From the NCBI GenBank assembly GCA_938045815.1, contig CALIBI010000052.1, positions 1-46,981 on the forward strand: a stretch of DNA of 46,981 bases, read 5' to 3'. The notes beneath the pieces are model-generated. The model was not told the DNA's origin. It saw nothing but the letters and a program-made list of their open reading frames with translations, and ran no database searches. The stretch comes from an uncultured Sulfolobales archaeon (lineage in GTDB: Archaea > Thermoproteota > Thermoprotei_A > Sulfolobales > NBVN01). The translations under genes were made by a program, and so were the position numbers. This document shows positions 7,801-35,420 of this stretch, one piece after another. How positions within the stretch are numbered: the stretch's first letter is position 1; each line of letters starts with the position of its first letter.

Positions 7801-8118
7801 CTGGCTAGGATTAAGAAGCTCGTACTAGTTACGGATAAAGATCACGCACTACACAAGCATTTCAGCGGGATAGCTGAGAAGATATCTAGAGAACTCAACA
7901 TACCTCTCGAGTATAAGTGGGGTGATTACGTCTACGTATCACAGTACGGCGACTCAGACGAGCTAGGCATTACTTGGTTACCACAATTATTCGCTGAGTT
8001 AGATGACGGAACAATAATTAAGGTCTTGACACAACCTAACTTGAGTGAGGCGGGCTACCTCGACGAGGAGAGAGACTATAAAGCTTCCTTAGAAGCGTTG
8101 AAGAACTACTTAGGTTAG
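7801..8118 (+). CDS. Conserved-looking hypothetical protein, no ATG/GTG/TTG start visible
   Basis: Open frame LARIKKLVLVTDKDHALHKHFSGIAEKISRELNIPLEYKWGDYVYVSQYGDSDELGITWLPQLFAELDDGTIIKVLTQPNLSEAGYLDEERDYKASLEALKNYLG*; GGTGAG Shine-Dalgarno-like sequence just before CTG at 7801; tightly followed by the 8133 ORF. Confidence 0.5.
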   Translation: MARIKKLVLVTDKDHALHKHFSGIAEKISRELNIPLEYKWGDYVYVSQYGDSDELGITWLPQLFAELDDGTIIKVLTQPNLSEAGYLDEERDYKASLEALKNYLG

Positions 8119-8132
8119 TAGGGGTATACTGC

Positions 8133-8471
8133 TTGAGCGTGAAAACAGTAATAGCTAGGATAAGTGAGGGGGAAATCAAGACACTAGACATAATAGAGTT
8201 TGGGAGTGTTGGAGAAGCTATCAAGAAGGTAGTCACAGACATACTAAAAGAATGGGATCCGGAGAAACACGACTTAATAATAACTAGGCATGAGTCAAGC
8301 GAGATAAGCGAGTCTAAGGAGTCGATACCCATCTACGTATTAAGTCCTTCAAGCGAGTGGGTAGGTGAGGAACTAATAGAGAAAGAAATAATAACGGTTT
8401 TTCCCTACGTTAACGAGGAACTAACAAACGAGATTCTGCGAGTACTCAGCGGATACAGCAAGCCAAGATAA
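8133..8471 (+). CDS. Hypothetical protein
   Basis: ORF track; 14 bp after the 7801-8118 frame, operon-like. Confidence 0.65.
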   Translation: MSVKTVIARISEGEIKTLDIIEFGSVGEAIKKVVTDILKEWDPEKHDLIITRHESSEISESKESIPIYVLSPSSEWVGEELIEKEIITVFPYVNEELTNEILRVLSGYSKPR

Positions 8472-10695: not shown

Positions 10696-11736
10696 TCAAG
10701 CAACTAGTTGGTGTCGAGACTTGTAGAATTCGAAGCACCTACTTTTAACCCACTCCAGCAGAGCGTCTACACCAACCCCCGTAAGAGCGCTTATCTTGTA
10801 CACCTCGTCGTTATGGATCTTCTTGACCATACTCAAAACCTCTGTTAGTCTCTCCTCAGAGGTCTCGTCAATCTTGTTTATCGCTACTAGGACGGGCTTA
10901 TCACTAAACATTGCTTTAATCATTTGGAGTAGGTCTATTTGCTGCTCTACTGTGTAGTAGCTAGATGGTCTTGGGTCAATCAAGTATATCACTACGTCAG
11001 CAAGAAACTTAATAGCTACTAAGGCTCTCTTCTCTATCTCGTTGAGTTCCGAGATAGGTCTATCAAGTATTCCTGGAGTATCGAATACCTGAACTCTCAT
11101 GTGGTTTACCTGGAGATGACCAGAGATAATGTTTTTTGTCGTGAATGGGAAGGGAGATACTTCAGGTTTCGATGTCGAGATTCTCCCAACTAATGTTGAC
11201 TTACCTACTTGAGGCATCCCAGAAACAACTACCTTAAGGTTGGTGAAGTCTATGCACGGCAGCTTCCTCAACTCATTAACAGCTACCTCAAGCTTCTTCA
11301 AGTCTTTATTTAGTCTCCTAACAATAGATAACGACCTACCGATAAACTCTCTCAAGTCTTTCTTTGCTTCCTCACTAGTTAGAGCAAGCTTTACTCGAAT
11401 CCTATAGTGCCTCCACAGCTTTCTCACGACTTTCTTGAATCCTCTCAACCTAAGATACGTTGACTTGTAATCAGTTATTCCTGAAATAGCTAGGAGCTCA
11501 GCGTAGAAAGGACTCAATACGTTTGGGTTTGGTAACGCGTTAAGAACCTCAAAAACCTTATTGAGTGTTTCGTACGCTTTATCAAGCCTAACCAAATACC
11601 TCACTACGTCCTTCCTCCTCACTTTCTTAGCTAGAGTGATGGGTTCCGAATACACGTTCATTAACGCTTCCCTAACCTCAGCATAACCCCACACCCTAAC
11701 ACTCCTTAAAGAATTACTCAAGCACTCCTCCTCCAC
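10696..11736 (-). CDS. NOG1-type GTP-binding protein
   Basis: G1 SGMPQVGKST, G3 DTPG, G4 NKID; N-terminal NOG1-like helical region. Confidence 0.87.
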   Translation of the reverse strand: MEEECLSNSLRSVRVWGYAEVREALMNVYSEPITLAKKVRRKDVVRYLVRLDKAYETLNKVFEVLNALPNPNVLSPFYAELLAISGITDYKSTYLRLRGFKKVVRKLWRHYRIRVKLALTSEEAKKDLREFIGRSLSIVRRLNKDLKKLEVAVNELRKLPCIDFTNLKVVVSGMPQVGKSTLVGRISTSKPEVSPFPFTTKNIISGHLQVNHMRVQVFDTPGILDRPISELNEIEKRALVAIKFLADVVIYLIDPRPSSYYTVEQQIDLLQMIKAMFSDKPVLVAINKIDETSEERLTEVLSMVKKIHNDEVYKISALTGVGVDALLEWVKSRCFEFYKSRHQLVA

Positions 11737-11972
11737 AAAACCTCACCCGACTTCCTAATCTCAACTATCCTGTGGAGAGGTATGATAGTGTCTCCCAAGA
11801 CTACCCTATCCTTCATCAACCTCGTGACCTCACTAAGTCTGATTTCTTTCAGGGAGTTGCTGGCTTTCCTATCCAAGACTACCATAACGTAGTTCCCCAG
11901 CTCCTCAGCCGGCACAGTATGAATTATTTTCTTGATTAACTCGTAGTTTTCCAGTCTCTTAATCGCGCGCAC
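11718..11972 (-). CDS. UPF0248/DUF504-like protein
   Basis: IIHTVPAEELGNYVMVVLDR...GDTIIPLHRIVEIRKSGEVLWRR. Confidence 0.8.
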   Translation of the reverse strand: MRAIKRLENYELIKKIIHTVPAEELGNYVMVVLDRKASNSLKEIRLSEVTRLMKDRVVLGDTIIPLHRIVEIRKSGEVLWRRSA

Positions 11973-12674: not shown

Positions 12675-13322
12675 ATGCTATTCTTCGATCAACACAGAGC
12701 TTCAGCACTACAGAAGAAGCTTTCTGAGTTGGTTGATACTAAGTACGAGCCAACTAAGATAGACCTAGTGGTTGGGTTAGACTTATCTTACGTTGGTGAT
12801 GAAGGGATAGCTATAGCTACACTACATAACTACCCGGACATGAGTCTAGTTAAGTATGCTGTAGCTTCAGACGAGGTACGCGTCCCCTACATACCAGGAT
12901 TACTGGCTTTCAGGGAAGCACCACTAATGTTTGCTGCTTACGAACTACTAAACGCGGACCCGGACTTAATTCTGGTTAACGGGCACGGGATAACGCACCC
13001 AAGGTCCTTCGGCATAGCATCACACGTGGGCGTGGTTCTCGACAAACCTACCGTAGGTGTTGCTAGGAGGATTCTCTCAGGTAGGGAGGTAGTGATTAAC
13101 GGGGAGAGATACCTAGAAAACAACGGCGTGTTAGGAGCTTACGTGGTCGTGAGAGGCGTGACTAAAACCTACTTAAGTATAGGTCATAAAGTTAGTCTAA
13201 GATTCATAGTAGAGATCACACCGAAGTTATTCAAGAATCACGAACTACCGGAACCAATATATACCGCAGACAGAATTTCTAAGCAGGTGAGGAGTAAGAT
13301 TGCACATAGTACTCGAGGGTAG
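12675..13322 (+). CDS. nfi: Endonuclease V
   Basis: VVGLDLSYVGDEGIAIATL, YIPGLLAFREAP, DLILVNGHGITHPRSFGIASHVGVVLDKPTVGVARRIL. Confidence 0.93.
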   Translation: MLFFDQHRASALQKKLSELVDTKYEPTKIDLVVGLDLSYVGDEGIAIATLHNYPDMSLVKYAVASDEVRVPYIPGLLAFREAPLMFAAYELLNADPDLILVNGHGITHPRSFGIASHVGVVLDKPTVGVARRILSGREVVINGERYLENNGVLGAYVVVRGVTKTYLSIGHKVSLRFIVEITPKLFKNHELPEPIYTADRISKQVRSKIAHSTRG

Positions 13323-13713
13323 GGTAGTCACGGGCTTCAAAGTTGGAGCTAAGTATGTTTCTATGTCACCATACAACATAATCCTGACTGAGTTAATAGA
13401 TGAGGAACCATACCCAGGAACACTCAACATAGAAATAAACAAAACATACGAGGAACTAATTAAGGAATGCACACCCTCAACCATAAGAAGCTTAATAGTT
13501 AGTGGGGTTAAGAAAGGAGGCTTCTACTACTGGTTCGGCAAAATACCTGAGATCCCTAACGAGTGGGTTTTAGTGATTAGACCATACCTAAGCAAACACA
13601 AACCAAACATCATAGAAATAATCTCAGCACACAACCTAAGAGAAAAACTCTCCCTAACAGACGGAAAACCACTAAAAATAAAGATATACTGCGCAGACTT
13701 CATGTCACTTTAA
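13300..13713 (+). CDS. ribK: Archaeal CTP-dependent riboflavin kinase
   Basis: LEGRVVTGFKVGAKYVSM...YPGTLNIEI...GGFYYWFGKI...NLREKLSLTDGKPLKIKI. Confidence 0.87.
   Translation: MHIVLEGRVVTGFKVGAKYVSMSPYNIILTELIDEEPYPGTLNIEINKTYEELIKECTPSTIRSLIVSGVKKGGFYYWFGKIPEIPNEWVLVIRPYLSKHKPNIIEIISAHNLREKLSLTDGKPLKIKIYCADFMSL
13629..13704 (+). repeat. ribK 3'-end direct repeat, copy 1 (left boundary of RLP island)
   Basis: acacaacctaagagaaaaactctccctaacagacggaaaaccactaaaaataaagatatactgcgcagacttcatg; 2 substitutions and one 3-nt indel versus 20441-20513. Confidence 0.95.
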
Positions 13714-13829
13714 CTACTTCACCCACTTTGGGGGTTTCGGATGCTTTAAGGGTTTTATATAGTAGTATAAAAGCGTGATTCAAAAATTCGTTAAAGTGCT
13801 TGAAGACCAAACCCCGAATTAAAAAAGAA

Positions 13830-13854
13830 AATATAAAATTTAAAATTTTATATT
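13830..13854. terminator. AT-rich perfect inverted repeat (12-nt arms, 1-nt centre), possible terminator or architectural site
   Basis: AATATAAAATTT-A-AAATTTTATATT at the 3' end of the UPF0261 gene. Confidence 0.4.
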
Positions 13855-15262
13855 AAGGAGGTGTAAGATTTAATTTTTTGAAGTCATTTAATGAGAGAGT
13901 CCAGAATTCCGTGAAGTATGCTCCTTTCTTCCATCTTCCTGCAAGCATATCATCCAGTATTCTTGCTATGAGTAGGCCAAAGTCTTTCTCGTTTATGTGT
14001 TTATCACATACTATTAGATCTAGGTTCTCCTTGCTTAAGTCCAAGTGCTTACTTAATTCATCCACAAATGCTACCGACCTTAAGCTCCACTCAGGCTTCT
14101 CTGGGTGTGATGCCCAGAAAGGTCCTGAGCCCGGACCAGCCCAACCTAGTTCGAGAGACGGCTCACGTATGTCGTAAGCACTCCAGCCTCTCATAGGAAC
14201 CACTAGCGCTGTAGGTCCTTTAGACTTGTTTAGTCTAACAGCCATCTCCTGCGCTAAACGTCTCGCCTCTATGGGTAGAGTTCCTATTACTGTGACCATT
14301 GGGTGGTGCACGTGTATCCTTCTGCCTGGAAGTCCTTCTGCCTCCTCCACCTCAAATTCTCTTTCAGTAACTAAGGATTTCTTTCCTTTAACCTCTACTC
14401 TGGGTCCGAAGTTGATCATATCAGCACCGCCCGTCGACACTACCTGAGGTATTCCCTTCTCCCCTGCTGCTGTGAGTCGTTCAGGACCAGCGCTGAGGAC
14501 ACCGCCGCAAACTAGATCTGTAAGCTCGTGAGTTGTTATGTCGGCTACAGCTGCTATGAAACCATCTCTAATTAATTCCTCTAACGACCTACCTCCAGTA
14601 CCAACAGCATGCAGTATCATTGAGTCATAACCCTTCTGTTCAAAGTACTCTGAGACGGTTTTAACGCAAGGGGTAGTGGTGCCGAACATAGTATACCCTA
14701 TGAGAGGTTTCAACACAACTCCTGGCTCAGGCGCTTTAGCCGCGCCCACAGCGGCCCCAGCAGCTGCCGCTAATATTTTCGCAGTCACGACGTTAATACC
14801 TTTCTCAGCTAGGGGATACCACATAGCTAAGTCTTTGATGTCTATGTAAGGTCTTACATCACCTGAGGCCATAGTGGATAACATGAACTTCCCAACACCG
14901 TATGGTAGGGCTCGCATGATCCTGCTAGCTATGGAGGTTCCTAACGAACCTCCGAAAGCGATCGCGCTTTTTATCTTGCCTTCCTCATAAAGTTTACGAG
15001 CTATCTTAATGCCACCAGCCACTATATACTCGGCAGCCTTTTCTCTCGTTATTTTACTTAATTCTTCAGCGGTAATGCCTGCTTCTCTAGCTACATCCTC
15101 TATCGATATATCGGCCCATCCTACAGGCTTTCCTGAAACAGTGAGTTCCATAAAGATAGGTCTGCCGCCAGCGCGCTTCACTAACTCAATCAGGAATTTA
15201 AGCTCTGGACCCTTAGTATCAGCTATGCCCATAACAAGAACTCCGGGTACTTCTGAACTCAT
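13853..15262 (-). CDS. UPF0261/Tm-1-like ATP-binding domain protein
   Basis: VLVMGIADTKGPELKFLIELVKRAGGRPIFMELTV...; matches remembered Tm-1-like UPF0261 features. Confidence 0.9.
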   Translation of the reverse strand: MSSEVPGVLVMGIADTKGPELKFLIELVKRAGGRPIFMELTVSGKPVGWADISIEDVAREAGITAEELSKITREKAAEYIVAGGIKIARKLYEEGKIKSAIAFGGSLGTSIASRIMRALPYGVGKFMLSTMASGDVRPYIDIKDLAMWYPLAEKGINVVTAKILAAAAGAAVGAAKAPEPGVVLKPLIGYTMFGTTTPCVKTVSEYFEQKGYDSMILHAVGTGGRSLEELIRDGFIAAVADITTHELTDLVCGGVLSAGPERLTAAGEKGIPQVVSTGGADMINFGPRVEVKGKKSLVTEREFEVEEAEGLPGRRIHVHHPMVTVIGTLPIEARRLAQEMAVRLNKSKGPTALVVPMRGWSAYDIREPSLELGWAGPGSGPFWASHPEKPEWSLRSVAFVDELSKHLDLSKENLDLIVCDKHINEKDFGLLIARILDDMLAGRWKKGAYFTEFWTLSLNDFKKLNLTPP

Positions 15263-15401
15263 AATTAATACCTCTCAGTATAGTATTAATACCAGAGTTT
15301 TTAAACATTCCGTACATGAGAGAATCCGTGTTAGCTTGAATTTAGTGCCTGAATAAAATATAAAAAAGTTGTAGGGTCCATTATGCTCAAAACTTTTTAC
15401 T

Positions 15402-16268
15402 TCACTTAAGCCTTAACTTCCATGGCTCTATCTTTATGGATTTCCATCTCTTGCATTCTTCTAACAAGAACTTCTTCACTGGGGTTCTCTCTATAGCAGA
15501 GCCCGACACAAACCCGACAGCCTTAGTGGCGCTTAGTACGCGAGCGACGGTCTCAGGATCTTCCATCGGGCCTCCATGCGTTATCGATATAAAATCACCC
15601 TCTGGTCTTACTCTGTAAGCCACATCTAGAAGTTTATTCGTTCTCTCAATGGCTTCTTCTATCGTGATAGTAGTTTTAGCACCCACTATTCCGCCAGTAG
15701 TCAGACCTACGTGAACCGCTATCAAGTCAACACCCGCTTTTGCTAGAGCTTCAACCTCATCTTCTGTGAAGGCGTAGCCGAGAGTAAACATATCCATCTC
15801 ACGAGCTATCTTAAGTACTTTAACTTCCTTGTCATAACCCATGCCAGTCTCCTCTAGGTTTCTTCTGAATAGTGAGTTCTTATCGATTAGTCCTACTGTC
15901 GGGAAGTTCTGAATACCTGAGAACCCCGTCTCCTTCAGTTTCTCTAGGTATTCAGACCATATGGTCCTCGGGTCCTGAGCACATACTCCAGCCAACACAA
16001 GCGAATTCTTAACACGCGGGAGTATCTCGCGACCCATCTTTATGATTAGTCTATTGGTATCGAATATGGGCATTAGACCTGAGAGCGAGCCTACCCCTAA
16101 ATGCCTTCCGAAGCCAGAGTTATACACACCTATAACATCTATGCCTGCTATATCAAATATCTTGGTGAAGAACCCGTCTCCAGCACTAGCAATAATTATT
16201 ATCCTGCCAGCTTTTACCTCACTCCATAATTTTTCGAGAGCTTTCTCACGAGGCACGAACTTAGCCAT
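15402..16268 (-). CDS. Phosphoenolpyruvate-hydrolase-like TIM-barrel protein (paralog A)
   Basis: IIIASAGDGFFTKIFDIAGIDVIGVYNSGFGRHLGVGSLSGLMP...FSGIQNFPTVGLIDKNSLFRRNLEETGMGYDKEV. Confidence 0.88.
   Translation of the reverse strand: MAKFVPREKALEKLWSEVKAGRIIIIASAGDGFFTKIFDIAGIDVIGVYNSGFGRHLGVGSLSGLMPIFDTNRLIIKMGREILPRVKNSLVLAGVCAQDPRTIWSEYLEKLKETGFSGIQNFPTVGLIDKNSLFRRNLEETGMGYDKEVKVLKIAREMDMFTLGYAFTEDEVEALAKAGVDLIAVHVGLTTGGIVGAKTTITIEEAIERTNKLLDVAYRVRPEGDFISITHGGPMEDPETVARVLSATKAVGFVSGSAIERTPVKKFLLEECKRWKSIKIEPWKLRLK
15822..15940 (-). repeat. 119-nt inverted tract shared with 18211-18329 (1 mismatch)
   Basis: Reverse complement aligned base by base to 18211-18329; only GAC/GAT at 18223 differs. 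Confidence 0.95.
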
Positions 16269-16431
16269 ACAAACAACTCATTTAAGATTGAGTATCTAAT
16301 TATTTAAATCTTTACAATAAAGACTCTTTATGTGTGCATAAAAGTAATTGCAGTACTGAATTATAACTCTCTAAGAAATTGAGCACCTGCTCGGACTCAG
16401 GCACTATAACTGCTTATGAGAGCCCATTTGA

Positions 16432-17084
16432 CTAATCTAGCTGGGTGACCTGCAGCACTATATTAAAGATGTTAACTCTGTTGGATATAACTATATCTTC
16501 ATAGTGTCCTGTGCTGGTAACTATCTTACCGAATTTGCTTTTACTAAATAATTCGAGGAGTGTTTCTCGTGTTGAGCGGTACATGTAGAGGGTTGCCAAG
16601 CCCTTGTCCTCGAGCACCACTCTTGGCTCTAAACTTACTAACGCTTTCTATTAAAGCTCAGCCCCTACATAATCCTCTACCGCGAACTTGCTCAGATCTG
16701 GACCTCCACACATTACGTTCACAGCACCATACCTCCTATCCAGCAGTACCTTTGCTACAGTCCTTGCGTTCATTGTTGACGAAATGAAAACGTTTTGAAT
16801 CCTCGCCTAACTGCATTACTAACTATGGCGGCTCTGGAAGAAGTTCTGATCACTAACTTACTTATGCCTCTCTTCAAGTAGGTCACCCAACACCTCATGA
16901 GGTCACTAGGCAAGTTATTTACCGCTTCTGGAGGCTTTACCCCACGTACCTCAGCTAAGAGAGGCAACTTCCTCGATTTAGCAAAGTTAACGGCCTCACT
17001 AAGTTCAGAAAACGCGTAGATGTGTTTGAAGCCTAAGCTAAGAGCGACTGTTACCGTAGTTAAGAATCTCAGTACCTCTATCAA
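16432..17084 (-). pseudogene. 2-phosphosulfolactate phosphatase (ComB)-like pseudogene
   Basis: Fragments in different frames: IEVLRFLTTVTVALSLGFKHIYAFSELSEAV...KLPLLAEVRGVKPPEAVNN...VIRTSSRAAIVSNAVRRGF / frameshift / NVFISSTMNARTVAKVLLDRRYGAVNVMCGGPDLSKFAVEDYVGAEL / TAA TAG / KALVSLEPRVVLEDKGLATLYMYRS... Confidence 0.7.
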
Positions 17085-17230
17085 TGATCATGGCATCCGC
17101 CTCCTTATCTAACCCTCCCTCAAACTATGTAACATGTACGGTAACTACTACAACCCACCCGTGAGTTTATCGTTAAATATGTGAAAAATAAAGATTTTTA
17201 GCTGTAAAAATTATAATTTAATCTTAACAA

Positions 17231-17800
17231 TTACTTAACGACCTTCTTAGGGAATGTTAGGAGTATGTTGAGCCAGCCTAGAAAGCCTCCAAATATCCCT
17301 GCTAGGCTCACCCATATCCAGAGTATCCACGCATCTATGAATGGATCTCCTGTGAGAGGTCCGGCACCAGCTCCGGGTTGTAGTCCCGAGAAGTAGAATG
17401 CCAAATACATTGAGATTCCGTTGAAGTACGGGAGACTCCCCTGCCGGAAGAGTGGATGAAACCTCATGGAGAACACAGCTATTGCAACCCACACAAATAT
17501 CCATATAGTAACCGATACAAGCGGCTTCCAACCTGCGTAGATGATAAAGTAATTGTTGAAGATCGCGAATATGGCCATAGTAAAAGCCCCTAACGGGAAG
17601 AGAATCCATATAGGTTTCAAAGCTGAAGGCTTTGCTCCAAGTGCGAAGTACTCAGCCCAAGCTATGAACGAGGCCCATAAAGCTAAGTTATACTTGCCTA
17701 ATAACGTGCCGAAAGGCAGCGATATAACCACGGTTAGAGCTACAGCAAGCCAGAGAGGCACTCTATGAACAATTACTTCAGTAGAGTTTGAGGTCGACAT
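17231..17800 (-). CDS. DUF1097-like integral membrane protein
   Basis: Several TM segments, VPLWLAVALTVVISLPFGTLLGKYNLALWASFIAWAEYFALGAKP; family recognised only by pattern. Confidence 0.6.
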   Translation of the reverse strand: MSTSNSTEVIVHRVPLWLAVALTVVISLPFGTLLGKYNLALWASFIAWAEYFALGAKPSALKPIWILFPLGAFTMAIFAIFNNYFIIYAGWKPLVSVTIWIFVWVAIAVFSMRFHPLFRQGSLPYFNGISMYLAFYFSGLQPGAGAGPLTGDPFIDAWILWIWVSLAGIFGGFLGWLNILLTFPKKVVK

Positions 17801-17864
17801 GAAAGCACTCTCATATAATAATGCTATGAAGGTTTATAAATGTTCATAATAGGATAATATTGAG

Positions 17865-18731
17865 GTGCTATATTTGGTTGAATACATACCTAGGAAATCA
17901 ATCTTAGAAAACATGTACAGTAAAATATCCAGAGGTGAGCCGATAATAGGTGTTGGGGCCGGCGTAGGCATAATAGCTAAGGTAGCGGAGCTCGCCGGTG
18001 CTGACTTAATCATAATATATAACTCTGGCAGGTATAGGATGGCTGGTTTCGGGTCGCTTGCAGGTCTCATGCCTTACGGCGACGCACATGAGGTACTCCT
18101 AGAGTTGGCTCCTGAAGTTTTAAGCGTCGTCAAGTACACACCCGTTCTCGCAGGAGTTACTGGAACCCACCCGTTCTACCAGGGTTACAGAATGCGGAAA
18201 TTCCTTCAGCAACTGAAGGAGATGGGGTTCTCAGGTATTCAGAACTTCCCGACAGTAGGACTAATCGATAAGAACTCACTATTCAGAAGAAACCTAGAGG
18301 AGACTGGCATGGGTTATGACAAGGAAGTTGAAGCAGTTAAGATAGCGCACGAACTTGATATGCTAACAACTCCTTACGTGTTTGACGAGGAAGACCTCAT
18401 TAACATGCTGAGGGTAGGAGCTGATGTTCTAGTACTACACTTCGGACTCACGGCTAAGGGCACTATAGGTGCTAGAACAACGATAACGTTAGAGGAGGCA
18501 GCCAAGAAAGCTCAGGAGTGGGCTAACCTAGCTAGAAGCCATAAGCCAGACGTGATAGTTCTCGTGCATGGCGGTCCGGTAGCAGACCTTGATGATTGGA
18601 AGTACATTGCAGAGAGGGTTAAGGGGGTGCACGGATTCTTTGGCGCCACAACATTTGAGAGACTACCAACAGAGAAAGCAGTGGCAGAGCAGATCAAAGC
18701 TTTCAAGGCGATTAAAATAAGGCCTACTTAA
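17865..18731 (+). CDS. Phosphoenolpyruvate-hydrolase-like TIM-barrel protein (paralog B)
   Basis: GEPIIGVGAGVGIIAKVAELAGADLIIIYNSGRYRMAGFGSLAGLMPYGDAHEV...; paralog of 15402-16268. Confidence 0.88.
   Translation: MLYLVEYIPRKSILENMYSKISRGEPIIGVGAGVGIIAKVAELAGADLIIIYNSGRYRMAGFGSLAGLMPYGDAHEVLLELAPEVLSVVKYTPVLAGVTGTHPFYQGYRMRKFLQQLKEMGFSGIQNFPTVGLIDKNSLFRRNLEETGMGYDKEVEAVKIAHELDMLTTPYVFDEEDLINMLRVGADVLVLHFGLTAKGTIGARTTITLEEAAKKAQEWANLARSHKPDVIVLVHGGPVADLDDWKYIAERVKGVHGFFGATTFERLPTEKAVAEQIKAFKAIKIRPT
18211..18329 (+). repeat. 119-nt inverted tract shared with 15822-15940
   Basis: See 15822-15940. Confidence 0.95.
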
Positions 18732-19044
18732 GGGAACTGAGTTCTTAGTTCTTTTTTGAATATTAAATGTAGTGTTTTAAGGCTTCAAAAACTCGAGAAA
18801 GTCTCCTAAGGGTAGGTAATCCTGATCCTAAGCCTAATGAAAACAACACAAACATAAATAATAAAAGTAGAACCCTCTGTTCAGAAGGTGATCCTCAATG
18901 CCATCAAAATAATTTAAATAAAGATGTGGGAAGGTGAACGTGTTTTACCAACATACTCTTCAGGCCTAACCATCCTTGTTCTTTAGTCTTGTAATTTAAA
19001 TTTTTTAAAAGAATAATAAGCAACATTTAGTTGGGTATCATGTT

Positions 19045-20421
19045 TTGAGCGAGCCCTCATATAAGGCTAAATATCTAGGAGCTGAGGACCCACGATATAC
19101 TCATGTGTTATGGTCTTCTTTAGACGCTTTAGATCCTGATCAATACATAATTGCAACCTATCTTGCTGTGTTAGCACCAGACGTAGACTTAGACGAAGCT
19201 TTAATACATGCGGCTATAGAGAACTCAACAGGTACCTAGACACCAGTTAAGTACGAGACAGTTGAGTTAAGAGATAAATATGGAGCAAAGATAGCTCGTG
19301 TAGTAACCTTCAGAACATGTGATAGGAATGCAGCAATATTCACGTTAGGCATATATGCCGAGAACTACAATCCTGAAGACGCAGGTCTTGCTAATTTACT
19401 AGCCGACATTGCGGGCAACGCATACGATCTCTTGGAGCTAGAGAATCTAAAACTAATAGATCTTCAGTTCCCTAGATGGTGGGCTGAAGCATTTCCTGGC
19501 CCTAAGTTTGGCGTTGAAGTCAAGAAAAGTGTCGGCGCTGATAACAGGCCTATGGTTGGGTGTATAATTAAACCTAACCTTGGTTTGGGCCCCAAACAAA
19601 TTAGTGAAATGGTCTATGAGCTAACTAGAGGCGGTATAGACTTCATAAAAGATGATGAGGCTTTAGTTAACCCAAAGTATTGCCCGATAGAGGAAAGGGT
19701 TGTGAGAGTTATGGAGGCAATAGATAAAGCCTCCAGTGAGACTGGTAAGAAGCCTTACTATGCTTTCAACATAACAAGTGATAGACAGGATAAAATGATG
19801 AAACTCGCGGATGTGGTTCAGTCTCACGGTGGTAACTCATTAATGGTGGTCTTGCCTTACGTGGGTTACGGCGGCGTACGCAGACTAGCAGAAGACCCCT
19901 CTATCAAGGTTCCACTACATGTTCACAGATGCGGGCACGGTGCCTATACTAGAGTTCCCTACCACGGCTTCTCACCAGTGTTAGTGAGTAAGCTCGGCAG
20001 GATGAGTGGTGCTGACGAAATCCACATAGGTGTTCTCTGGGGTAAATTCCACCATGATGTTACAGAAGCTCGACAACACTGCGAAGTCTTGAGGAAACCT
20101 TGGCTACACTTCAAGCCAACGTTACCAACATTGTCTGGAGGAAACGATCCCAGCAACGTTGGTCGAGCAAGCAGTATATTAGGAAGAGATCTCTTAATAC
20201 TTGCTGGAGGAGGTATTCTAGGACATCCTTCGGGAATCAAGGCTGGAGCCTTGGCTATGATGCAGGCAGCTGAAGCCGTGGAGAAAAACATACTAGCAGA
20301 AGAATATGCTAAAGAGCATGCGGAGCTAGCAGAAGCCTTGAAATTCTGGTTGAAAGCCTACAAGAAGCAGAGTAGATTTTGTGATACATATTCTGAACGA
20401 GAATTAGACCCGAGCAAATAA
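19045..20421 (+). pseudogene. RuBisCO-like protein (form IV) large subunit interrupted by in-frame TAG at 19237-19239
   Basis: Track ORFs 19045-19239 and 19432-20421 are in one frame. Reading through TAG gives ...AIENSTGT[*]TPVKYETVELRDKYGAKIARV...CIIKPNLGLGPKQ...GGIDFIKDDEALV...HVHRCGHGAYTR...TLSGGNDPSNV...AGGGILGHPSG. KPN instead of KPK suggests RLP rather than bona fide RuBisCO. Confidence 0.88.
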
Positions 20422-20440
20422 AAACAAACATTATGAGGAG

Positions 20441-20513
20441 ACACAACCTAAGAGAAAAACCCTCCTTAACAGACGGAAAACCACTAAAAAAGATATACTG
20501 CGCAGACTTCATG
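20441..20513 (+). repeat. ribK 3'-end direct repeat, copy 2 (right boundary of RLP island)
   Basis: acacaacctaagagaaaaaccctccttaacagacggaaaaccactaaaaaagatatactgcgcagacttcatg; lies inside a mini-ORF (20433-20522) MRRHNLREKPSLTDGKPLKKIYCADFMPT*. Confidence 0.95.
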
Positions 20514-20554
20514 CCAACCTAAACATATGAATTTCCTGAGGCTTGAGAGAACAT

Positions 20555-21163
20555 CTAGAGCAAGTATTGTCTTATTTTTGACTGCAGTTGAGTAGCTACT
20601 CTCGACCTAGCTGTGTTGGTCACCTCATCCGTTAGGTTATTTCCTTGAGAGTCTATGGCGACTATCAGGGGTCCGAACTCCTTCACCCTCAGTAACCAGA
20701 GTGCTTCAGGAATTCCTAGGTCAAGCCACTCAACCCCCAGTACCTCCTCCACAGCGAAGGCGCCGAGAGCTCCGCAACCTCCGGGGAATATCACGTATAC
20801 TGCCTTAAACTTCCTGCAGGCTTCAGCTGTTCTGCTACCCATACCCCCCTTACCTATGATTATCTTGACCCCCGTCCTCTCAATGAATTCGCTCTCATAG
20901 TACTCCATCCTCATGCTTGTGGTAGGACCTACGGATCGGCAGACCCACTTACCACCAAACCTAACCATGATAGGACCTGCGTGAAGTATTGCTAAGCCTC
21001 TCAGATCCACGGGCAACGGAACTCCCTCCACAAGGAATCTCCTGTGAGCCGCGTCTCTCGCGGTCACCACGACGCCGCTGACGTAGATGACGTCACCTAC
21101 CTTTAGTTCAGACACAACGTCATCAGTTACTGGGAGATTCACAACTCTACTCAAGAACCACAC
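20555..21163 (-). CDS. Class I fumarate hydratase, beta (C-terminal) subunit
   Basis: VGDVIYVSGVVVTARDAAHRRFL...GPTTSMRMEYYESEFIERTGVKIIIGKGGMG. Confidence 0.9.
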   Translation of the reverse strand: MWFLSRVVNLPVTDDVVSELKVGDVIYVSGVVVTARDAAHRRFLVEGVPLPVDLRGLAILHAGPIMVRFGGKWVCRSVGPTTSMRMEYYESEFIERTGVKIIIGKGGMGSRTAEACRKFKAVYVIFPGGCGALGAFAVEEVLGVEWLDLGIPEALWLLRVKEFGPLIVAIDSQGNNLTDEVTNTARSRVATQLQSKIRQYLL

Positions 21164-22085
21164 CCCCGTGAGTTAGTACCTGGTAGCTCAAGTCAGGGAA
21201 TACTCTCAACCACCCCTTCCTGAGGGCCCAGCATGCGGTACTCACCCCGACCGCTAGGGTAGCTGGATGTCTCCCAGCATACTCCACATGAACCGCGAGA
21301 GCGGTGGTCCTGCCGCCGAGACCTTGCGGACCTATCCCTAACCCGTTAATAGCTTCCGCAAGCCTCTCTTCAAGCAGTGCTATCTTGGGGTTAGGATTCC
21401 TTGACCCCAGGGTCCTGAGGAGCGCCTTCTTAGAGAGGAGGGCTGCGATCTCTACGGTAGGACCTAAGCCAACCCCCACTACTAGTGGTGGGCACGCCGG
21501 CGGACCGTACTCCGCAACAACATTTAACACGAACTCGGCAACACCCTCCAGACCTAAAGCAGGGTCTAGAACCCTAGCCGAACCAGGTCTGCTTGAACCT
21601 CCTCCCGCGATGTAGAGCCGGAGGTCAGCGTGGTTGACGCCTGGAAGCATTTCTATCTCTACCCACGGATGTCCGAGCCCTGTGTTATCTCCAGTGTTCC
21701 TGCTCGTGACCGGGTCGACTACGTTAGGTCTTAAGAAACCATCATTCGTAGCCCTCACTACAGCTTCCCTAATGGCCTTAAGAAGATCACCCGCGTACGT
21801 GAAGCCCTCACCCAACCCGACGAAGAACTCTAGCACTCCAGTATCCTGACAAAGAGGAACATTCCTTTTAGCAGCGATTTCCAAGTTCCTGAACATCGCC
21901 TCATAAACTAGTTTGACGTGCGGGGAGCTCTCGATCTTGGAGGCGCTTGCTAGAGCGGAGAGCACGTCATCAGGCAGCCTGACGACAACGAGGGATATGA
22001 ACCTGGAGATCAAGTCGACGAACCTCTCGCGAACAGACTGGGAGGAACCCAGAAGCACCGCCTCCGAAGTACAATTAATGAACAA
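21147..22085 (-). CDS. Class I fumarate hydratase, alpha (N-terminal) subunit
   Basis: VPLCQDTGVLEFFVGLGEG...LRPNVVDPVTSRNTGDNTGLGHPWVEIEM...LGIGPQGLGGRTTALAVHVEYAGRHPA. Confidence 0.9.
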   Translation of the reverse strand: MFINCTSEAVLLGSSQSVRERFVDLISRFISLVVVRLPDDVLSALASASKIESSPHVKLVYEAMFRNLEIAAKRNVPLCQDTGVLEFFVGLGEGFTYAGDLLKAIREAVVRATNDGFLRPNVVDPVTSRNTGDNTGLGHPWVEIEMLPGVNHADLRLYIAGGGSSRPGSARVLDPALGLEGVAEFVLNVVAEYGPPACPPLVVGVGLGPTVEIAALLSKKALLRTLGSRNPNPKIALLEERLAEAINGLGIGPQGLGGRTTALAVHVEYAGRHPATLAVGVSTACWALRKGWLRVFPDLSYQVLTHGGVVLE

Positions 22086-22119
22086 GATATATTAAGACAT
22101 AAATGAGTTTGTTTCGTGA

Positions 22120-22998
22120 CTATATCAGCCCGTACAGTGTCAGGAGTTCGTTAGGTATGGAGCAGCAGGACTGAATAACTTCTAGTTTGAATTTGTTTAT
22201 TGTGTTTTTGAGGGGGTTGACTATCCTGTCTATGATGCCTGACTCACATAACTCATTATCTAGTGTGTGCTTAGTTATTGCTGGCCTCATACATCCTAAG
22301 GCTATCTCACCCCTGAATCTCTGTCTCGCGTAGTTGATTACCTTCACTACTTCCTGGTTGCTAGGGATTCTCGCTGGGTACGGGCTTGCTTCCCTCGTCG
22401 GCTTGATTACTAAGAACACTATTATTTCCGGGGAGCCATCAACAGATGCTTCAACAGCTTCAAATTCCTTAACGATGTCCCCGTTATTCGCGCCGATGAG
22501 TATGTGGGGGATTATGTGTGGTGGTCCGTAGGTTCTTAGTTCCTCGTACGTTCTTATGAAGTCCTCACTACTCTTGCTAGGTAAGTGCATCACGTTTTTA
22601 ATCACGTAATCATCCGTAACTAACTCGTAATCCACTACATCAACCTTAGCTTCTCTTAACTTAATAGCTAGGGATCTACTTACGAGTCCTGCGTGCACAC
22701 TAATTATCATGTCGAAACTATTCTTGATTTCCTTGATTACTTGTATGTAGGGCTCTATTGGTAGGTATCCTTCCTTGTTGAAGCCCCCACTAATTAGCAT
22801 TCCTTTAGCTCCTTCCGCATGTAGGTGCTTAGCTATGTCGTACAATTGCTTAGGAGTGATAGCTTGTTCCATACCTCTTAAGTAGTACCCTCTACAGTAA
22901 TTACACATTAGTGAGCATTGAGTACCAGTGATGCTTACACTAACGAACTTACGGCCAGGTATGAAGGCTCTAACGCTTCTCAACTCACCCACACTCAC
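22120..22998 (-). CDS. Radical SAM protein, LipS1/LipS2-type lipoyl synthase subunit
   Basis: CSLMCNYCRGYYLRG radical-SAM CxxxCxxC; adjacent to a second radical SAM gene and LplA/LplB. Confidence 0.75.
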   Translation of the reverse strand: MSVGELRSVRAFIPGRKFVSVSITGTQCSLMCNYCRGYYLRGMEQAITPKQLYDIAKHLHAEGAKGMLISGGFNKEGYLPIEPYIQVIKEIKNSFDMIISVHAGLVSRSLAIKLREAKVDVVDYELVTDDYVIKNVMHLPSKSSEDFIRTYEELRTYGPPHIIPHILIGANNGDIVKEFEAVEASVDGSPEIIVFLVIKPTREASPYPARIPSNQEVVKVINYARQRFRGEIALGCMRPAITKHTLDNELCESGIIDRIVNPLKNTINKFKLEVIQSCCSIPNELLTLYGLI

Positions 22999-23965
22999 TA
23001 AGCAGACGCTTCAACTCACTCACTAACGAATCTTTATTCCTGAGTAGGAATTCTCTTGAGGGGTAGTTGTAGTAAGGTCCTCTCACACTCTCGTTGTAGA
23101 AAGGTCTGTTACAGCTTGGGCAGCCGTAAGTTAAGAACGCATCAAAGAACTTATCAGTACTGCTTAAGATACCGTTAATTAACTCCTTACTCAGGATGAG
23201 TTTACCTCCCTCCACCCTGACGTAGTTGTCTACGTCGAGTCCTGAATCCATGAGGTACCTAAGAATCTGCATCTTCCTATAACCTATCAAGTCAGGTTTT
23301 CTCCAGTTACTGCTCGTGGTTCCTTTCACTGGGGTGAAGGAAAACAAAGATATGTTGACTCCTAAACTCTTAAAGAACTTCATTGATTTGAAGAACTCCA
23401 CGTCGTTCTCACCCAACCCGTATATCAGGTGAACGTACACGTTGCTAGGACCAAAAACATCTATCGAGTTACTCAGGAATTTGAGGTAGTGTTCCCAGCT
23501 GTATGGTTTTCTCACAAGCTTGAATACCTCAGGTGTTGATGCGTCGAAACCTATCCCTAACTTATCAACACCGAGATCTCTCAGCCTCTGTAGGTCTCCC
23601 TTACTGATCGGGGTTGTAGAAACGCTGATGGGTTTCTCAACTCCCTCACTTCTTAACGAGCTCACTATCTTGAGTACGTCGTCTAGGAAACGTTTCTTGA
23701 TTACTGTCTGTATGCATATCCTCCCTACCGCTGTGTTGGTCTTGATCTTGTTGATTAGTTCTTCAAGCTCTACCTCAGGCCACGGAACTCTGGATACTAA
23801 GTCTTTGCTAGATCTGCTTAACCTGCTTTGAGGGCAGAAAACACACTCACCCATACACCCGTTCTCAGAATGTAGGAGTAGGTAGGCGGTCGTGGGTTTC
23901 TCAACCACGCCTACATCAACCAACCCTAGGAGTGCTAGGGTGCCTAGAGATGCTCTAACCCTCAC
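22985..23965 (-). CDS. Radical SAM protein, LipS1/LipS2-type lipoyl synthase subunit
   Basis: NGCMGECVFCPQSR motif; partner of the gene above. Confidence 0.75.
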   Translation of the reverse strand: MRVRASLGTLALLGLVDVGVVEKPTTAYLLLHSENGCMGECVFCPQSRLSRSSKDLVSRVPWPEVELEELINKIKTNTAVGRICIQTVIKKRFLDDVLKIVSSLRSEGVEKPISVSTTPISKGDLQRLRDLGVDKLGIGFDASTPEVFKLVRKPYSWEHYLKFLSNSIDVFGPSNVYVHLIYGLGENDVEFFKSMKFFKSLGVNISLFSFTPVKGTTSSNWRKPDLIGYRKMQILRYLMDSGLDVDNYVRVEGGKLILSKELINGILSSTDKFFDAFLTYGCPSCNRPFYNESVRGPYYNYPSREFLLRNKDSLVSELKRLLSECG

Positions 23966-24024
23966 CTCACGTAACCGTGGAGTAAGAACTACAGAAACTA
24001 ATATAAATCAGCACGTAATTCTTT

Positions 24025-24789
24025 ATGTGGGTATTGCTGATGTGGAGGTTGATCATAGACGAGAACAACGTTTACAGGAATATGGCTATTGATGAAGCAC
24101 TCCTGATACTTAAGGATAGGGGGCTAATCCCTAATACTCTCAGGCTGTATGTTTTCAACCCAAGTGCTGTCACTGTAGGGTATTTCCAGAGAATTAGTGA
24201 TGCTGTGAACCTGGAATTCCTCAAGGAGAACAACATAGGTTTCACTAGGAGGATTAGTGGTGGAGGTTCAGTATATCACGACGCTAACGGTGAGATCACG
24301 TACTCTGTCGTAGCTTCTATACCTGATATCTCACACGATATTCTGGAGAGTTACAGAATCATATGTGGTGGTATTATCAACGCTTTAGGCGAGTTCGGGC
24401 TTAGAGCCGAGTTCGTGCCCGTGAATGACGTCGTAGTGGGTGGTAGGAAAATATCTGGGAGTGCTCAATCAAGGAGGAAGTCAGCTCTGCTACAACACGG
24501 TACCTTAATGTACGCGACAGACCTGAACACGCTAGCAAGTACTTTGAGAGCACCTAAAGAGAAGTTAAGAGAACATAAGGTTTCTTCAATTCTTGAGAGA
24601 GTAACCACCATATCTAGAGAATTAGGTAGGGTAGTCACTAAGGACGAAACCATCAACGCAATGATCAAGGGGTTTAGCAAAGCACTAAACACGGACTTCG
24701 CTAGAGGCTGGTACACGAAGGAGGAACTCAAACTAGCTGAGGAGCTAGTAAGCAAGTATGCGAGTCACGAATGGATTTTTCAGAGGTAG
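24025..24789 (+). CDS. lplA: Lipoate-protein ligase A, N-terminal/catalytic part (LplA)
   Basis: NMAIDEALL...NPSAVTVGYFQRISDAVNLEFLKENNIGFTRRISGGGSVYHDANGEITYSVV...GRKISGSAQSRRKSALLQHGTLMY. Confidence 0.92.
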   Translation: MWVLLMWRLIIDENNVYRNMAIDEALLILKDRGLIPNTLRLYVFNPSAVTVGYFQRISDAVNLEFLKENNIGFTRRISGGGSVYHDANGEITYSVVASIPDISHDILESYRIICGGIINALGEFGLRAEFVPVNDVVVGGRKISGSAQSRRKSALLQHGTLMYATDLNTLASTLRAPKEKLREHKVSSILERVTTISRELGRVVTKDETINAMIKGFSKALNTDFARGWYTKEELKLAEELVSKYASHEWIFQR

Positions 24790-25084
24790 GTGGGGTGGGT
24801 TGGTTACGTGTAGTTTGGTTAAGAGGTTGAGTGGCGGAAAAACAATCAAGGTAGATCTAGAAGTAACTGGTGAGGTAATAAAAGACGTAGTGATTAGTGG
24901 TGATTTCTTCCTCTACCCGGAAGAATACATACACGTGATCGAGTCAGAACTGAGAGGAAAGAAAGTATCGGAAGTCTCTAAAATCTTAAGCAAGTTCAGG
25001 GATTCAGTCGTGATTGCGTCTGCGTCTATAGAAGAATTCGCTGAAGCTATAATAGAGACCTACAGAACCTGCGTGTCAGGATAA
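24758..25084 (+). CDS. lplB: Lipoate-protein ligase accessory/C-terminal subunit (LplB); true start probably internal near 24803
   Basis: SLVKRLSGGKTIKVDLEVTGEVIKDVVISGDFFLYPEEYIHVIESELRGKKVSE; follows LplA. Confidence 0.85.
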   Translation: MRVTNGFFRGRWGGLVTCSLVKRLSGGKTIKVDLEVTGEVIKDVVISGDFFLYPEEYIHVIESELRGKKVSEVSKILSKFRDSVVIASASIEEFAEAIIETYRTCVSG

Positions 25085-25136
25085 TTACTACTAAGAGCTT
25101 GATTAGGTTGAGTATAGTGGTAGGTGGGGGCTAGAG

Positions 25137-26219
25137 TTAGAGATTCTTTGCTGCCTCCTCTATTAGGGGGTCTAGGAACTTGTTTTGTTCATCTACTATC
25201 GCGTGTTTCCTGAGTGTGTGGAGAATATCGTGAAGAACTCTATCACTTATAGCTCTCCCTTCCAGGTTTTCTAGTTTTGTTTTGAGTCTTCCCCAATCTC
25301 TTAAGTCTTGAGCTAAGAGTCTTAATACGGTCTTATATCTCTCCCTACTCACCCTATATTTCAGGAAATCTTCTAGTTCTTGTTTCGCGAGTTCTACTGC
25401 TTCTCTCCAGATTGATTCAAGGTTTTTGTTCTGCATTATTTTCGCGTATCCGTAGTATGTGAGCCACCCGATTACGCCATTCAACTTATTAACTACTTCT
25501 TCAATTTCTCTTAACTCTACCTTATGTCCTGCTTCCTCAAATCCCTTGATTAAGTAGTTTATTGATTCTTCTCTCGTAAGTCTTCTTGTTCTGACTTCTA
25601 AGTATGCTCTGCCGTAGAGAGGAGCTTCAGGATCTTCAAAAAATTTGTAGAGGACCCCCATCTCGGAACCTGAGATCACGAATGAGAGGTTTCTTAGGTA
25701 GTCGTAAGCGTGAGCGATAGTGTTTTGGAGGATGATTGACGCGTGTCCTGTAGCTCTCTGAAGTTCATCGAAAACTACAGTTATTTTTGTGTTATGCTCT
25801 ACACCAACCTCGTTTAAAGCTGTGAAGACTTCACTCAGTAGAGGTTTCTCGGTACCCCAGGAAAACTCGATAGTAAATCCTGACACGGAAACACCTCTAA
25901 CAAGCTTAAGGAATCTTAGTATTGTTTTGTATAGTCTCTCGCTCCTCGAAATCCTGGAGAGGAATTCTGAGAAGCCGGAAGAGATGAGTTGATATAGTTC
26001 CCTCCTAGACTTAGTTATGGTTCTTAAATCAAAGTACACGTATGGGGAACCAGACTCGTTAAGAGCTGTAAGAATTAATGATGTTTTCCCAGTCCTTCTT
26101 AATCCAGTAACAACTATGAGTGGTTCTCCAAGATACTTCTTAAGTGTATCAAGTTCTTTCTCGAAATCGTAGAGATCCTCAACACGAGTTTTCGGTCGAG
26201 GATCAAAAAGCACTTTCAC
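25137..26219 (-). CDS. Archaeal STAND/AAA-family ATPase
   Basis: Walker A VVTGLRRTGKTSLI; ITVVFDELQRATG Walker B-like; winged-helix-like C-terminus. Confidence 0.82.
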   Translation of the reverse strand: MKVLFDPRPKTRVEDLYDFEKELDTLKKYLGEPLIVVTGLRRTGKTSLILTALNESGSPYVYFDLRTITKSRRELYQLISSGFSEFLSRISRSERLYKTILRFLKLVRGVSVSGFTIEFSWGTEKPLLSEVFTALNEVGVEHNTKITVVFDELQRATGHASIILQNTIAHAYDYLRNLSFVISGSEMGVLYKFFEDPEAPLYGRAYLEVRTRRLTREESINYLIKGFEEAGHKVELREIEEVVNKLNGVIGWLTYYGYAKIMQNKNLESIWREAVELAKQELEDFLKYRVSRERYKTVLRLLAQDLRDWGRLKTKLENLEGRAISDRVLHDILHTLRKHAIVDEQNKFLDPLIEEAAKNL

Positions 26220-26346
26220 ACCGAAACATACTTTCGCACCGAAATAAATAACTCTTCTTCAAACACGAAATTAATGATTTCTTCAGCTATGCTTAGTAGT
26301 GTAATGTTTTTTAACTTTGATTACGTTATATTTATTGTGAGTTAGC

Positions 26347-26592
26347 ATGCCTGTAGCTATAGTTCTCATAAATACTGAGATAGGGTCTGAAGCTGACGTG
26401 CTAAACGCTTTAGCTAATATCGAGGGGGTTAAGGAAATCTACGAAGTTTACGGTATGTATGACGTCGTAGTCAAGATTGAAGCACCAACACACGAAGCAC
26501 TGAGAGACCTAATAATAAACAAAATCAGGAAAATACCTCAGGTACGCGGAACAACCACGATGATAGTAGTAGAGCAAAGAATAGTCACGTAA
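26347..26592 (+). CDS. Stand-alone Lrp/AsnC ligand-binding (RAM) domain protein
   Basis: AIVLINTEIGSEADVLNALANIEGVKEIYEVYGMYDVVVKIEAPTHEALRDLIINKIRKIPQVRGTTTMIVV; no HTH. Confidence 0.88.
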   Translation: MPVAIVLINTEIGSEADVLNALANIEGVKEIYEVYGMYDVVVKIEAPTHEALRDLIINKIRKIPQVRGTTTMIVVEQRIVT

Positions 26593-26739
26593 GAATAAAT
26601 CACTCGTTTTTGCTTTCTCACAAAAGTTTTAATACCGTAGTTTATCAAGCTACTGTTAGAAATAACGCATAACACGTAATAATAAGATCCCTCTTAAAGA
26701 ATTCCATAATGTCTTTATTTTAGTCTTGTGGTTCCCAAC

Positions 26740-26880
26740 ACTACCATACTAGGTGCTGCACCCTTAATGCTGTTTCGATTTTCATTGGTCTTTCTGGGAC
26801 AGGTGTTTCCTGAACACTCCTAAGCCTGGTTAAAGACCTGAGAAAACTTAGGAGAAACCAGTAGGCGAGAACGTTACACC
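26740..26880. ncRNA. Candidate structured RNA with interleaved complementary segments (H-type pseudoknot possible)
   Basis: TCCTAAG 26818-26824 pairs CTTAGGA 26847-26853; CTGGTT 26826-26831 pairs AACCAG 26856-26861; convergent intergenic. Confidence 0.3.
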
Positions 26881-26885
26881 ACATT

Positions 26886-26901
26886 GAAAGTCGGCTGACT
26901 T
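26886..26901. terminator. Short hairpin AAAGTC-GGCT-GACTTT downstream of TrmB stop
   Basis: Perfect 6-bp stem, 4-nt loop, immediately 3' of the minus-strand CDS. Confidence 0.4.
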
Positions 26902-26907
26902 TAATCA

Positions 26908-27954
26908 TCAGTCGTGTGCGGGTTGCGGCGGTCTATATACGGTTATCTTAAACGCCTCGAAGTCTTCGTAGATCGCTCCTCTCCCCCCAACGAGTATTCT
27001 TGCTCCGTCGCGTTCTATTATTAAGGATGTTATTTCGCGGTACTTATCTCTTGTAGCACTTATTGGCTTCCCCTTAATAACTCCTACCTCGCCGCTGGAT
27101 AACCACCTCCCCTCCACCTCTACCTCTACTTCCATGCCGTTTTCTTGCATCTTCTGTATCATTTCTATAGCTCGTAGCAAGTTCCTGAACCTTCTTCTAC
27201 CTATGTCTACACCTAATCGATACACTATAGGGCTTGAAGTTTCTCTGAGGCTGAAGAAGTAATTTATTATGGGTGAGAGTATTTCTGCGTCTTCGATTAC
27301 GTAAGCGATTGGTCTCTGTTTGTATGTTCGCGGGATTATCAACCCGTTTGAGAGATCTCTTAAAATCATTATTGGTCCCTGCGTTGGCTTAAGCCTCACC
27401 TCATCGTACAAGACTAAGCTCTCAACGATTTTCTCGTTTTTGTCGTACAGGATAACACAGACGGAAACTTCTTTCTTCTCTATCTTCTCAAGATTCTTTA
27501 ATAATATTTTCTCCGCGAAGTCTGTGTAGGTCGTGATGAGTAGTTCGTCTTCTGTTTTCTCTATGAAGTCTCTAATAAGTGCTGTAATACCGTGAATACC
27601 GCTCACACTCCATACGTAATCCTCCTCAGCCAAGTGAGGACTCTTCTCAATACTCTTTAGAATCTCGTCCACGATCTTGATCTTACCTAACATCTCTTGC
27701 TCTACGTAATTCTTTAGAGCTATGTCCGGCTCAATGAGAGAGTATCGTGTAGGCCTGCCTTTACTAACTTTAACTAACCCCTTAGAAACAAGTTTTTCGA
27801 TAATATCGTAAAGCCTTGCTTGAGGTATCCCCGCTATCTTTATAAGTTCGGTAGAAGTCAATGCTCCATGCTTTAATAACGCGTAATAAACTCTGGCTTC
27901 ATACTTCGTGAAACCTATCCTTAAAAACTTTAAAATCGCTTCCTCATCACTCAC
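26908..27954 (-). CDS. TrmB-family sugar-sensing transcriptional regulator
   Basis: N-terminal HTH GFTKYEARVYYALLKHGALTSTELIKIAGIPQARLYDIIEKLVSKGLV; C-terminal TrmB-like domain; adjacent to a sugar locus. Confidence 0.88.
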   Translation of the reverse strand: MSDEEAILKFLRIGFTKYEARVYYALLKHGALTSTELIKIAGIPQARLYDIIEKLVSKGLVKVSKGRPTRYSLIEPDIALKNYVEQEMLGKIKIVDEILKSIEKSPHLAEEDYVWSVSGIHGITALIRDFIEKTEDELLITTYTDFAEKILLKNLEKIEKKEVSVCVILYDKNEKIVESLVLYDEVRLKPTQGPIMILRDLSNGLIIPRTYKQRPIAYVIEDAEILSPIINYFFSLRETSSPIVYRLGVDIGRRRFRNLLRAIEMIQKMQENGMEVEVEVEGRWLSSGEVGVIKGKPISATRDKYREITSLIIERDGARILVGGRGAIYEDFEAFKITVYRPPQPAHD

Positions 27955-28016
27955 GAAGATCCCTCACTCATAAATACCTGCTAAACACCTAATAAAGCGA
28001 GAGCTTGTTGCTGAAT

Positions 28017-30715: not shown

Positions 30716-30810
30716 CTGCTAGTAGTACTAATTAATCTGTTAGTCGTGGTTTATATTTTTATCTTCTAGGGGTAGAGTATGTGGTAACTATATCGTCACA
30801 AAATTTATAA

Positions 30811-30826
30811 ACTACTATATAGTAGT
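30811..30826. promoter_or_regulatory. 16-bp perfect palindrome ACTACTATATAGTAGT, candidate operator
   Basis: Between TATA-like aaaatttataa (~30800) and GTG start 30849 of the sugar-binding protein; divergent from the HAD/GH65 genes. Confidence 0.55.
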
Positions 30827-30848
30827 ATATAACATGAGGTGAAAACAA

Positions 30849-32183: not shown

Positions 32184-32196
32184 AAGTGAATTAACG

Positions 32197-33968: not shown

Positions 33969-33972
33969 TACT

Positions 33973-35076: not shown

Positions 35077-35189
35077 ACAAACACAAACCCTACACCACAC
35101 TGAGTGTTTCGTCGTAGCGTATGTGCTATGCTTCGTAGCGTTAAGTTACATCTCTTTAGATTTCTTGAGACCCAGATAGTCGTTAACGT

Positions 35190-35333: not shown

Positions 35334-35420
35334 ACTACACGTAATTTATATGAGGTAAAGCCTAACTTATGTTGTGAGCCTACTTAAGTATTTGGTGATT
35401 GCTCCTAAGGTGATTACGAA

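Follow-up and report, generated by a model that had tools for sequence, protein, structure and literature searches.

A circularly permuted island of metabolic genes between two copies of the ribK 3' end in an uncultured Sulfolobales archaeon

In the genome under study (G000), an island of metabolic genes 6.7 kb long lies between ribK, which encodes a CTP-dependent riboflavin kinase, and an isolated second copy of the ribK 3' end. We compared this locus, which is part of a 46,981-nt stretch of DNA analyzed as a whole (the window), with the genomes of four members of the same genus (G001–G004). The features from ribK to the Lrp gene region are as follows, in window coordinates.

13300–13713, plus strand: ribK, intact (Pfam PF01982, E 3.3e-22; 81% identity to the G002 and G004 orthologues); repeat copy 1 lies at its 3' end
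13629–13707, plus strand: repeat copy 1, inside ribK (direct-repeat alignment)
13714–13821, no strand: spacer of ~108 nt after ribK (nothing in 8 related genomes matches it significantly)
13853–15262, minus strand: UPF0261-A (PF06792/PF23189; 93% amino acid identity to G001, dN/dS 0.05)
15402–16268, minus strand: PEPH-A, a PEP_hydrolase-like TIM barrel (PF09370, E 7e-89; 90% amino acid identity to G001)
16316–16404, no strand: putative circle-closing junction, with the decayed 3' tail of a cas4-like gene (the gene flanks PEPH-A in G001) followed by the 3' side of comB (DNA blocks, shuffles)
16405–17130, minus strand: comB pseudogene, 2-phosphosulfolactate phosphatase family (tblastn with G001 ComB in frames -3 and -1; PF04029 fragment)
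17231–17800, minus strand: DUF1097-like membrane protein (PF06496, E 2e-6; 87% amino acid identity to G001)
17865–18731, plus strand: PEPH-B (PF09370, E 4e-112; 93% amino acid identity to G001)
18740–19005, plus strand: internal-deletion scar, with UPF0261-B and PEPH-C gone and the PEPH-C 3' tail and PEPH-C/RLP spacer left (alignment to G001 locus L081, 0/300 shuffles)
19042–20421, plus strand: gene for a RuBisCO-like protein (RLP) with one in-frame amber codon (PF00016; 89–94% amino acid identity to the intact G001 gene)
20441–20516, plus strand: repeat copy 2, the isolated ribK 3' end (direct-repeat alignment)
20514–22119, minus strand: imported fumarase block with the last ~15 nt of the neighboring asnC-type gene (89% DNA identity to G003, L097 9109–10709)
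20555–21163 and 21147–22085, minus strand: fumarase subunits beta and alpha, respectively, within that block
22120–26219, no strand: further content of the ribK-Lrp insertion, namely two radical SAM proteins, a lipoate ligase (two genes) and an archaeal ATPase (Pfam)
26302–26598, plus strand: Lrp/AsnC-domain gene region, next to ribK in G002 and G004 (86–87% DNA identity)

The ribK repeat is real and local. Aligned as one gapped match, its two copies measure 79 and 76 nt and differ by 3 substitutions and a single 3-nt deletion. As separate matches, 13629–13678 and 20441–20490 are 96% identical and 13677–13707 and 20486–20516 are 94% identical; no exact run common to both copies exceeds ~25 nt. 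The alignment has a local score of 128, as compared to 28 at most in shuffles (n = 300, 5 kb). A preliminary description of this DNA had counted 2 substitutions and one 3-nt deletion, which is correct up to 13704/20513; it had also named dispersal of the segment as grounds for giving up its reading, and a whole-genome DNA search of G000 returned just the two copies, with the next match at E = 0.48. A possible upstream extension of ~27 nt (13586–13612 versus 20409–20435), which reaches into the 3' end of the RLP gene, is weak and is equalled by 3 of 2000 shuffles and by 14 of 1973 random window segments.

The C-terminal reading is M-S-L-stop in copy 1 and M-P-T-stop in copy 2, while the ribK genes of G002 and G004 end in I-P-I-stop and I-P-S-stop. 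Because the Pro codon and the stop position of these two congeners are both found in copy 2, the comparison weakly suggests that this copy contains the older ribK end, which the insertion displaced. It additionally carries a Leu-to-Pro change and one lost codon, as expected for a dead fragment. At its 3' junction the likeness to ribK stops at 20516 and the likeness to the asnC-fumarase flank of G003 begins at ~20514–20517, an overlap of ~3 nt.

All four congeners have a single ribK end, and none of them carries the island at ribK, which supplies the island-free alleles that had been proposed as a check. The Lrp gene region follows ribK after ~43 nt in G004 and ~374 nt in G002 and is 12.6 kb off in G000; convergent ferredoxin oxidoreductase genes come after ribK in G001 and G003. 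Relative to G002 and G004, the extra DNA of ~12.6 kb in G000 is composed of the island (~13708–20440), ribK copy 2, the fumarase block (~20514–22119) and the radical SAM, lipoate ligase and ATPase genes (to 26219). The insertion thus exceeds the interval first delimited, as G002 and G004 likewise lack ~20514–26301 between ribK and Lrp, and the radical SAM protein gene at 22985–23965 has no counterpart in G001–G004. Farther downstream, the interval from the Lrp gene to a block at 44.6 kb (26600–44630, compared with L031 and L032) differs in content and measures ~18 kb in G000, 6.4 kb in G002 and 9.3 kb in G004, and is thus a variable region. A CRISPR-like array of ~25-nt repeats ~65 nt apart occupies the contig end (46447–46927), and a single repeat matching it lies 3.5 kb upstream in opposite orientation (42879–42905).

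The fumarase genes show a dS of 0.30–0.41 between G000 and G003, for which host genes are saturated, and a GC content of 0.54 as compared to 0.46 for host genes; fumarase was not found in G002 or G004. These values identify the fumarase block as a second import, from a G003-like relative. Hence, two imports with different closest relatives meet at ribK copy 2, and this second, downstream import makes the locus a mosaic.

A search for the same island elsewhere, which the preliminary description had recommended, located it in G001 at another locus (L081, G001:C3), where the order is cas4-like gene, PEPH-A (+), UPF0261-A (+), RLP (-), PEPH-C (-), UPF0261-B (-), PEPH-B (-), DUF1097 (+) and comB (+). 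Read in reverse, this gives comB, DUF1097, PEPH-B, UPF0261-B, PEPH-C, RLP, UPF0261-A and PEPH-A, to be set beside UPF0261-A, PEPH-A, comB, DUF1097, PEPH-B and RLP in G000. The G000 island is therefore circularly permuted with respect to that of G001, with all relative gene orientations kept and two genes missing. Three DNA blocks connect the window to L081: 13857–16340 with 10055–7554, 16405–18720 with 16174–13860, and 19046–20367 with 11498–10177. The internal RLP/UPF0261-A junction of G001 corresponds to both outer ends of the G000 island, each of which meets a ribK copy, and the outer ends of the G001 island (the cas4-like side and the comB side) are joined inside the G000 island at 16340/16405. 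The first of these blocks reaches into the G001 cas4-like gene, covering 28 nt at its 3' end, and a decayed cas4-like tail continues past the block end (alignment equalled in 6 of 2000 shuffles). Because this tail is kept inside the island, and the PEPH-C tail before RLP, the inserted island derives from a G001-like, eight-gene order flanked by the cas4-like gene. The permutation rests on one genome pair, G001 being the single other island bearer.

No ribK-like repeat and no other flanking direct repeat was detected at the G001 island. Its two flanks (L081 6935–7582 and 16337–18076) sit on separate contigs in each of the other four genus members (G000, G002, G003 and G004), which blocks an empty-site reading there; because of this separation, the G001 island may also be located at a rearrangement breakpoint.

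Between G000 and G001, five island genes have a pS of 0.43–0.53 and a dS of 0.64–0.91, whereas among host genes psmB has a dS of 2.42 and saturation is reached in nfi, ribK and the GTPase gene (pS ~0.75). Island divergence this low against near-saturated host genes shows that the island moved horizontally. Third-position GC (GC3) of the island is 0.53 in G001, below the 0.67 of G001 host genes, and 0.44 in G000, which fits the host genes of G000 and not those of G001. Since its own island falls below its host genes, G001 need not be the donor itself but only a genome with the gene order that the donor had. Among the 229 genomes of the class, a PEPH-A homologue above 46% identity is present in G000 and G001 only, and PEPH-A was not found in viral contigs.

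An assembly or binning artefact, in which the contig would join pieces from different genus members at similar sequence, has to be weighed here, as the G000 assembly consists of 72 contigs with 3% contamination and neighboring blocks differ in their closest relative. However, the sequences on either side of the 12.6-kb insertion lie on one contig and are both collinear with G002 and G004, the repeat copies have no common exact run longer than ~25 nt, and the island GC3 matches G000 host genes rather than G001; we consider an artefact very improbable.

The island is decaying in G000, with comB frameshifted, two genes deleted and an amber codon in RLP, so that the initial view of the interval as one functional set was too generous. 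The amber codon (TAG at ~19237–19239) replaces the Trp codon (TGG) of the STGTWT motif in G001 and interrupts a frame that is otherwise open, which is why the listed RLP ORF starts only at 19432; it is a recent nonsense mutation, a sequence error or a site of readthrough. The frames of UPF0261-A, PEPH-A, DUF1097 and PEPH-B are open, with dN/dS values of 0.04–0.11 between G000 and G001, and these four genes are under purifying selection between the two genomes. RLP is also conserved despite its amber codon (dN/dS 0.056). Within the two PEPH genes of G000, an inverted stretch of 169 nt (15784–15952 versus 18199–18367) is 91% identical, including one 20-codon bin at 100%, while the rest shows ~50% DNA identity; the stretch is raised in G001 too (86%), which may point to gene conversion between the paralogues or to very strong constraint on this stretch.

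The preferred explanation is that a circle from a donor inserted into the 3' end of ribK and that ~80 bases of the target were duplicated by host recombination or repair rather than by an encoded integrase, an account we hold to be probable. The donor would have carried eight genes (PEPH-A, UPF0261-A, RLP, PEPH-C, UPF0261-B, PEPH-B, DUF1097 and comB), arranged as in G001 beside the cas4-like gene. This set would have circularized by joining the tail of the cas4-like gene to the comB end; the circle would have been broken between RLP and UPF0261-A, which are convergent, and would have entered ribK within its final ~80 bases in the G000 lineage, duplicating them on insertion. Copy 1 would have remained with the full ribK gene, while copy 2, at the far end by the older downstream neighbor, would have started to decay; UPF0261-B and PEPH-C would have been lost and comB degraded. 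The most likely sources of the duplication are host end-joining, replication-based repair or homologous recombination. The data directly show the repeat, the empty sites, the insertion, the second island locus, the permutation, the horizontal transfer and the decay, from which we infer the free circle, the way in which the duplication formed and the sequence of events.

A change in order from A-B/C-D to B-A/D-C with orientation kept has been treated as the mark of circular intermediates (PMC7450558). The same change, with the source ends fused inside the derived copy, characterizes circular-DNA-mediated segmental duplications in human (PMC7450558) and cattle colour-sidedness (cited therein), and the G000 island displays both the permuted order with orientations kept and the fused source ends (16340–16405). 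It differs from those cases in that a cluster of metabolic genes moved between lineages, in an archaeon, and in its direct target duplication of ~79 nt. Scars in the circular-DNA duplications are smaller, at 1–27 bp (PMC7450558); where a circle insertion would be expected to leave only microhomology or short indels, the insertion points in G000 have the 79-nt duplication and unassigned sequence of ~108 and ~41 nt at the two ends. The circle model leaves these ~108 nt (13714–13821) and the ~41 nt before copy 2 unaccounted for, and the former resemble neither the RLP-UPF0261 spacer of G001 nor the ribK-Lrp spacers of G002 and G004. Also counting against it, the repeat, at ~80 nt, is longer than expected of a simple target-site duplication, and copy 2 adjoins the second imported block, such that several events overlap. 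The same order would also arise with no free circle if a tandem duplication had formed in the donor and its middle had been captured.

The position of copy 2 exactly between the G001-like island and the G003-like fumarase block, with its ~3-nt overlap at the 3' junction, would also be expected if replication-based repair had joined the imports by switching from the island end to the nearby ribK template (~80 nt) and on to the asnC-fumarase fragment, making copy 2 a copied patch instead of a target duplication. Short gene tails are found at other junctions as well (cas4-like, asnC, PEPH-C). On the other hand, the stop codon of copy 2 has kept its native position, something not required of a random patch, and a circle or tandem intermediate would still be required for the permutation. 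We take such templated copying to be the main rival to circle insertion, albeit an unlikely one.

Site-specific integration, in which a tyrosine integrase encoded elsewhere or since lost would have acted on an att site in the element resembling the 3' end of ribK, would make copies 1 and 2 attL and attR and copy 1 a replacement end. Archaeal att sites have been reported inside protein-coding genes and are usually ~40–50 bp for several integrase groups, and archaeal tyrosine-recombinase islands likewise have direct repeats bracketing the island, an intact target gene and an isolated 3' end at the far side (PMC8371274). G000 shares with them the direct repeats at both island ends, one of them in a gene 3' end, the intact ribK and the empty allele with a single target end in G001–G004; the permuted order in G001 is compatible with this scenario, and the Pro codon and stop position of copy 2 are what a displaced original end would retain. 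However, Pfam scans of 39 window ORFs, all island genes included, revealed no integrase or transposase, and the island in G001 lies away from ribK with no att-like core repeat. ARAGORN found no tRNA in the window, and Rfam gave no match on 12.5–22.5 kb. Because integrase, transposase, tRNA and a flanking repeat at the G001 island are all lacking, we favor host recombination or repair, and site-specific integration seems improbable. The original description, of an element integrated into a gene 3' end with no visible integrase, is partly supported: DNA was inserted at the end of ribK and that end is duplicated, island-free alleles exist, and the island recurs in G001, in a permuted order that fits insertion of a circle ending in the two ribK copies. 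An integrative element as such is unproven, and the description is incomplete in that the island is permuted, of horizontal origin, partly decayed and adjacent to a second import.

The comB-DUF1097-PEPH-B-UPF0261-B core is present with other flanks in two further genomes, G005 and G011, in the same divergent arrangement as in the G001 island core and with PEPH-B at 91–93% amino acid identity. Unlike G001, these two genomes have no close PEPH-A/UPF0261-A/RLP part. Around the G011 cluster (L084), direct repeats of ~316 nt were considered as a duplicated gene tail and rejected, since alignment shows a dispersed, MITE-like element; its three copies (5304–5617, 7836–8151 and 11599–11914) are 80–92% alike and have the same edges, CCGTTTGTCCCTAGATG ... 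AACAGAACAGCCC. One copy interrupts the G011 comB, so comB was broken independently in G000 and G011.

RLP shares the RuBisCO_large domain with the RuBisCO superfamily (form III, OiaX, MtnW) but scores far below the curated cut-off of each of these families (293 bits against 497 for form III RuBisCO and 228 against 700 for OiaX). RLP aligns with the form III structure 6hun at the KDDE motif and at most of the remaining active-site positions, whereas the loop motif KPK of form III is KPN in RLP. Its relatives in the searched genome contigs are bacterial, at 34–38% identity. From its companion genes, one might guess at a role in sugar-acid or sugar-phosphate breakdown. We rejected a general RLP-PEPH partnership, as PEPH or UPF0261 is nearby at only 2 of 84 RLP loci, and our literature search found no report on RLP together with UPF0261.

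A broader proposal would regard the island as an integrase-free mobile metabolic circle of archaea that spreads among congeners and is inserted by host recombination at convergent gene ends, duplicating a gene tail each time; we find this generalization doubtful. At the level of single bases, the locus documents a cluster of metabolic genes that moved between archaeal lineages, circularly permuted, with the target gene end duplicated and no mobility gene, and it bears on how integrase-free islands travel and land. Because ribK itself is still whole and the far side is marked by a dead copy of its end, such scars, duplicated 3' gene ends 5–20 kb apart, can be searched for systematically.
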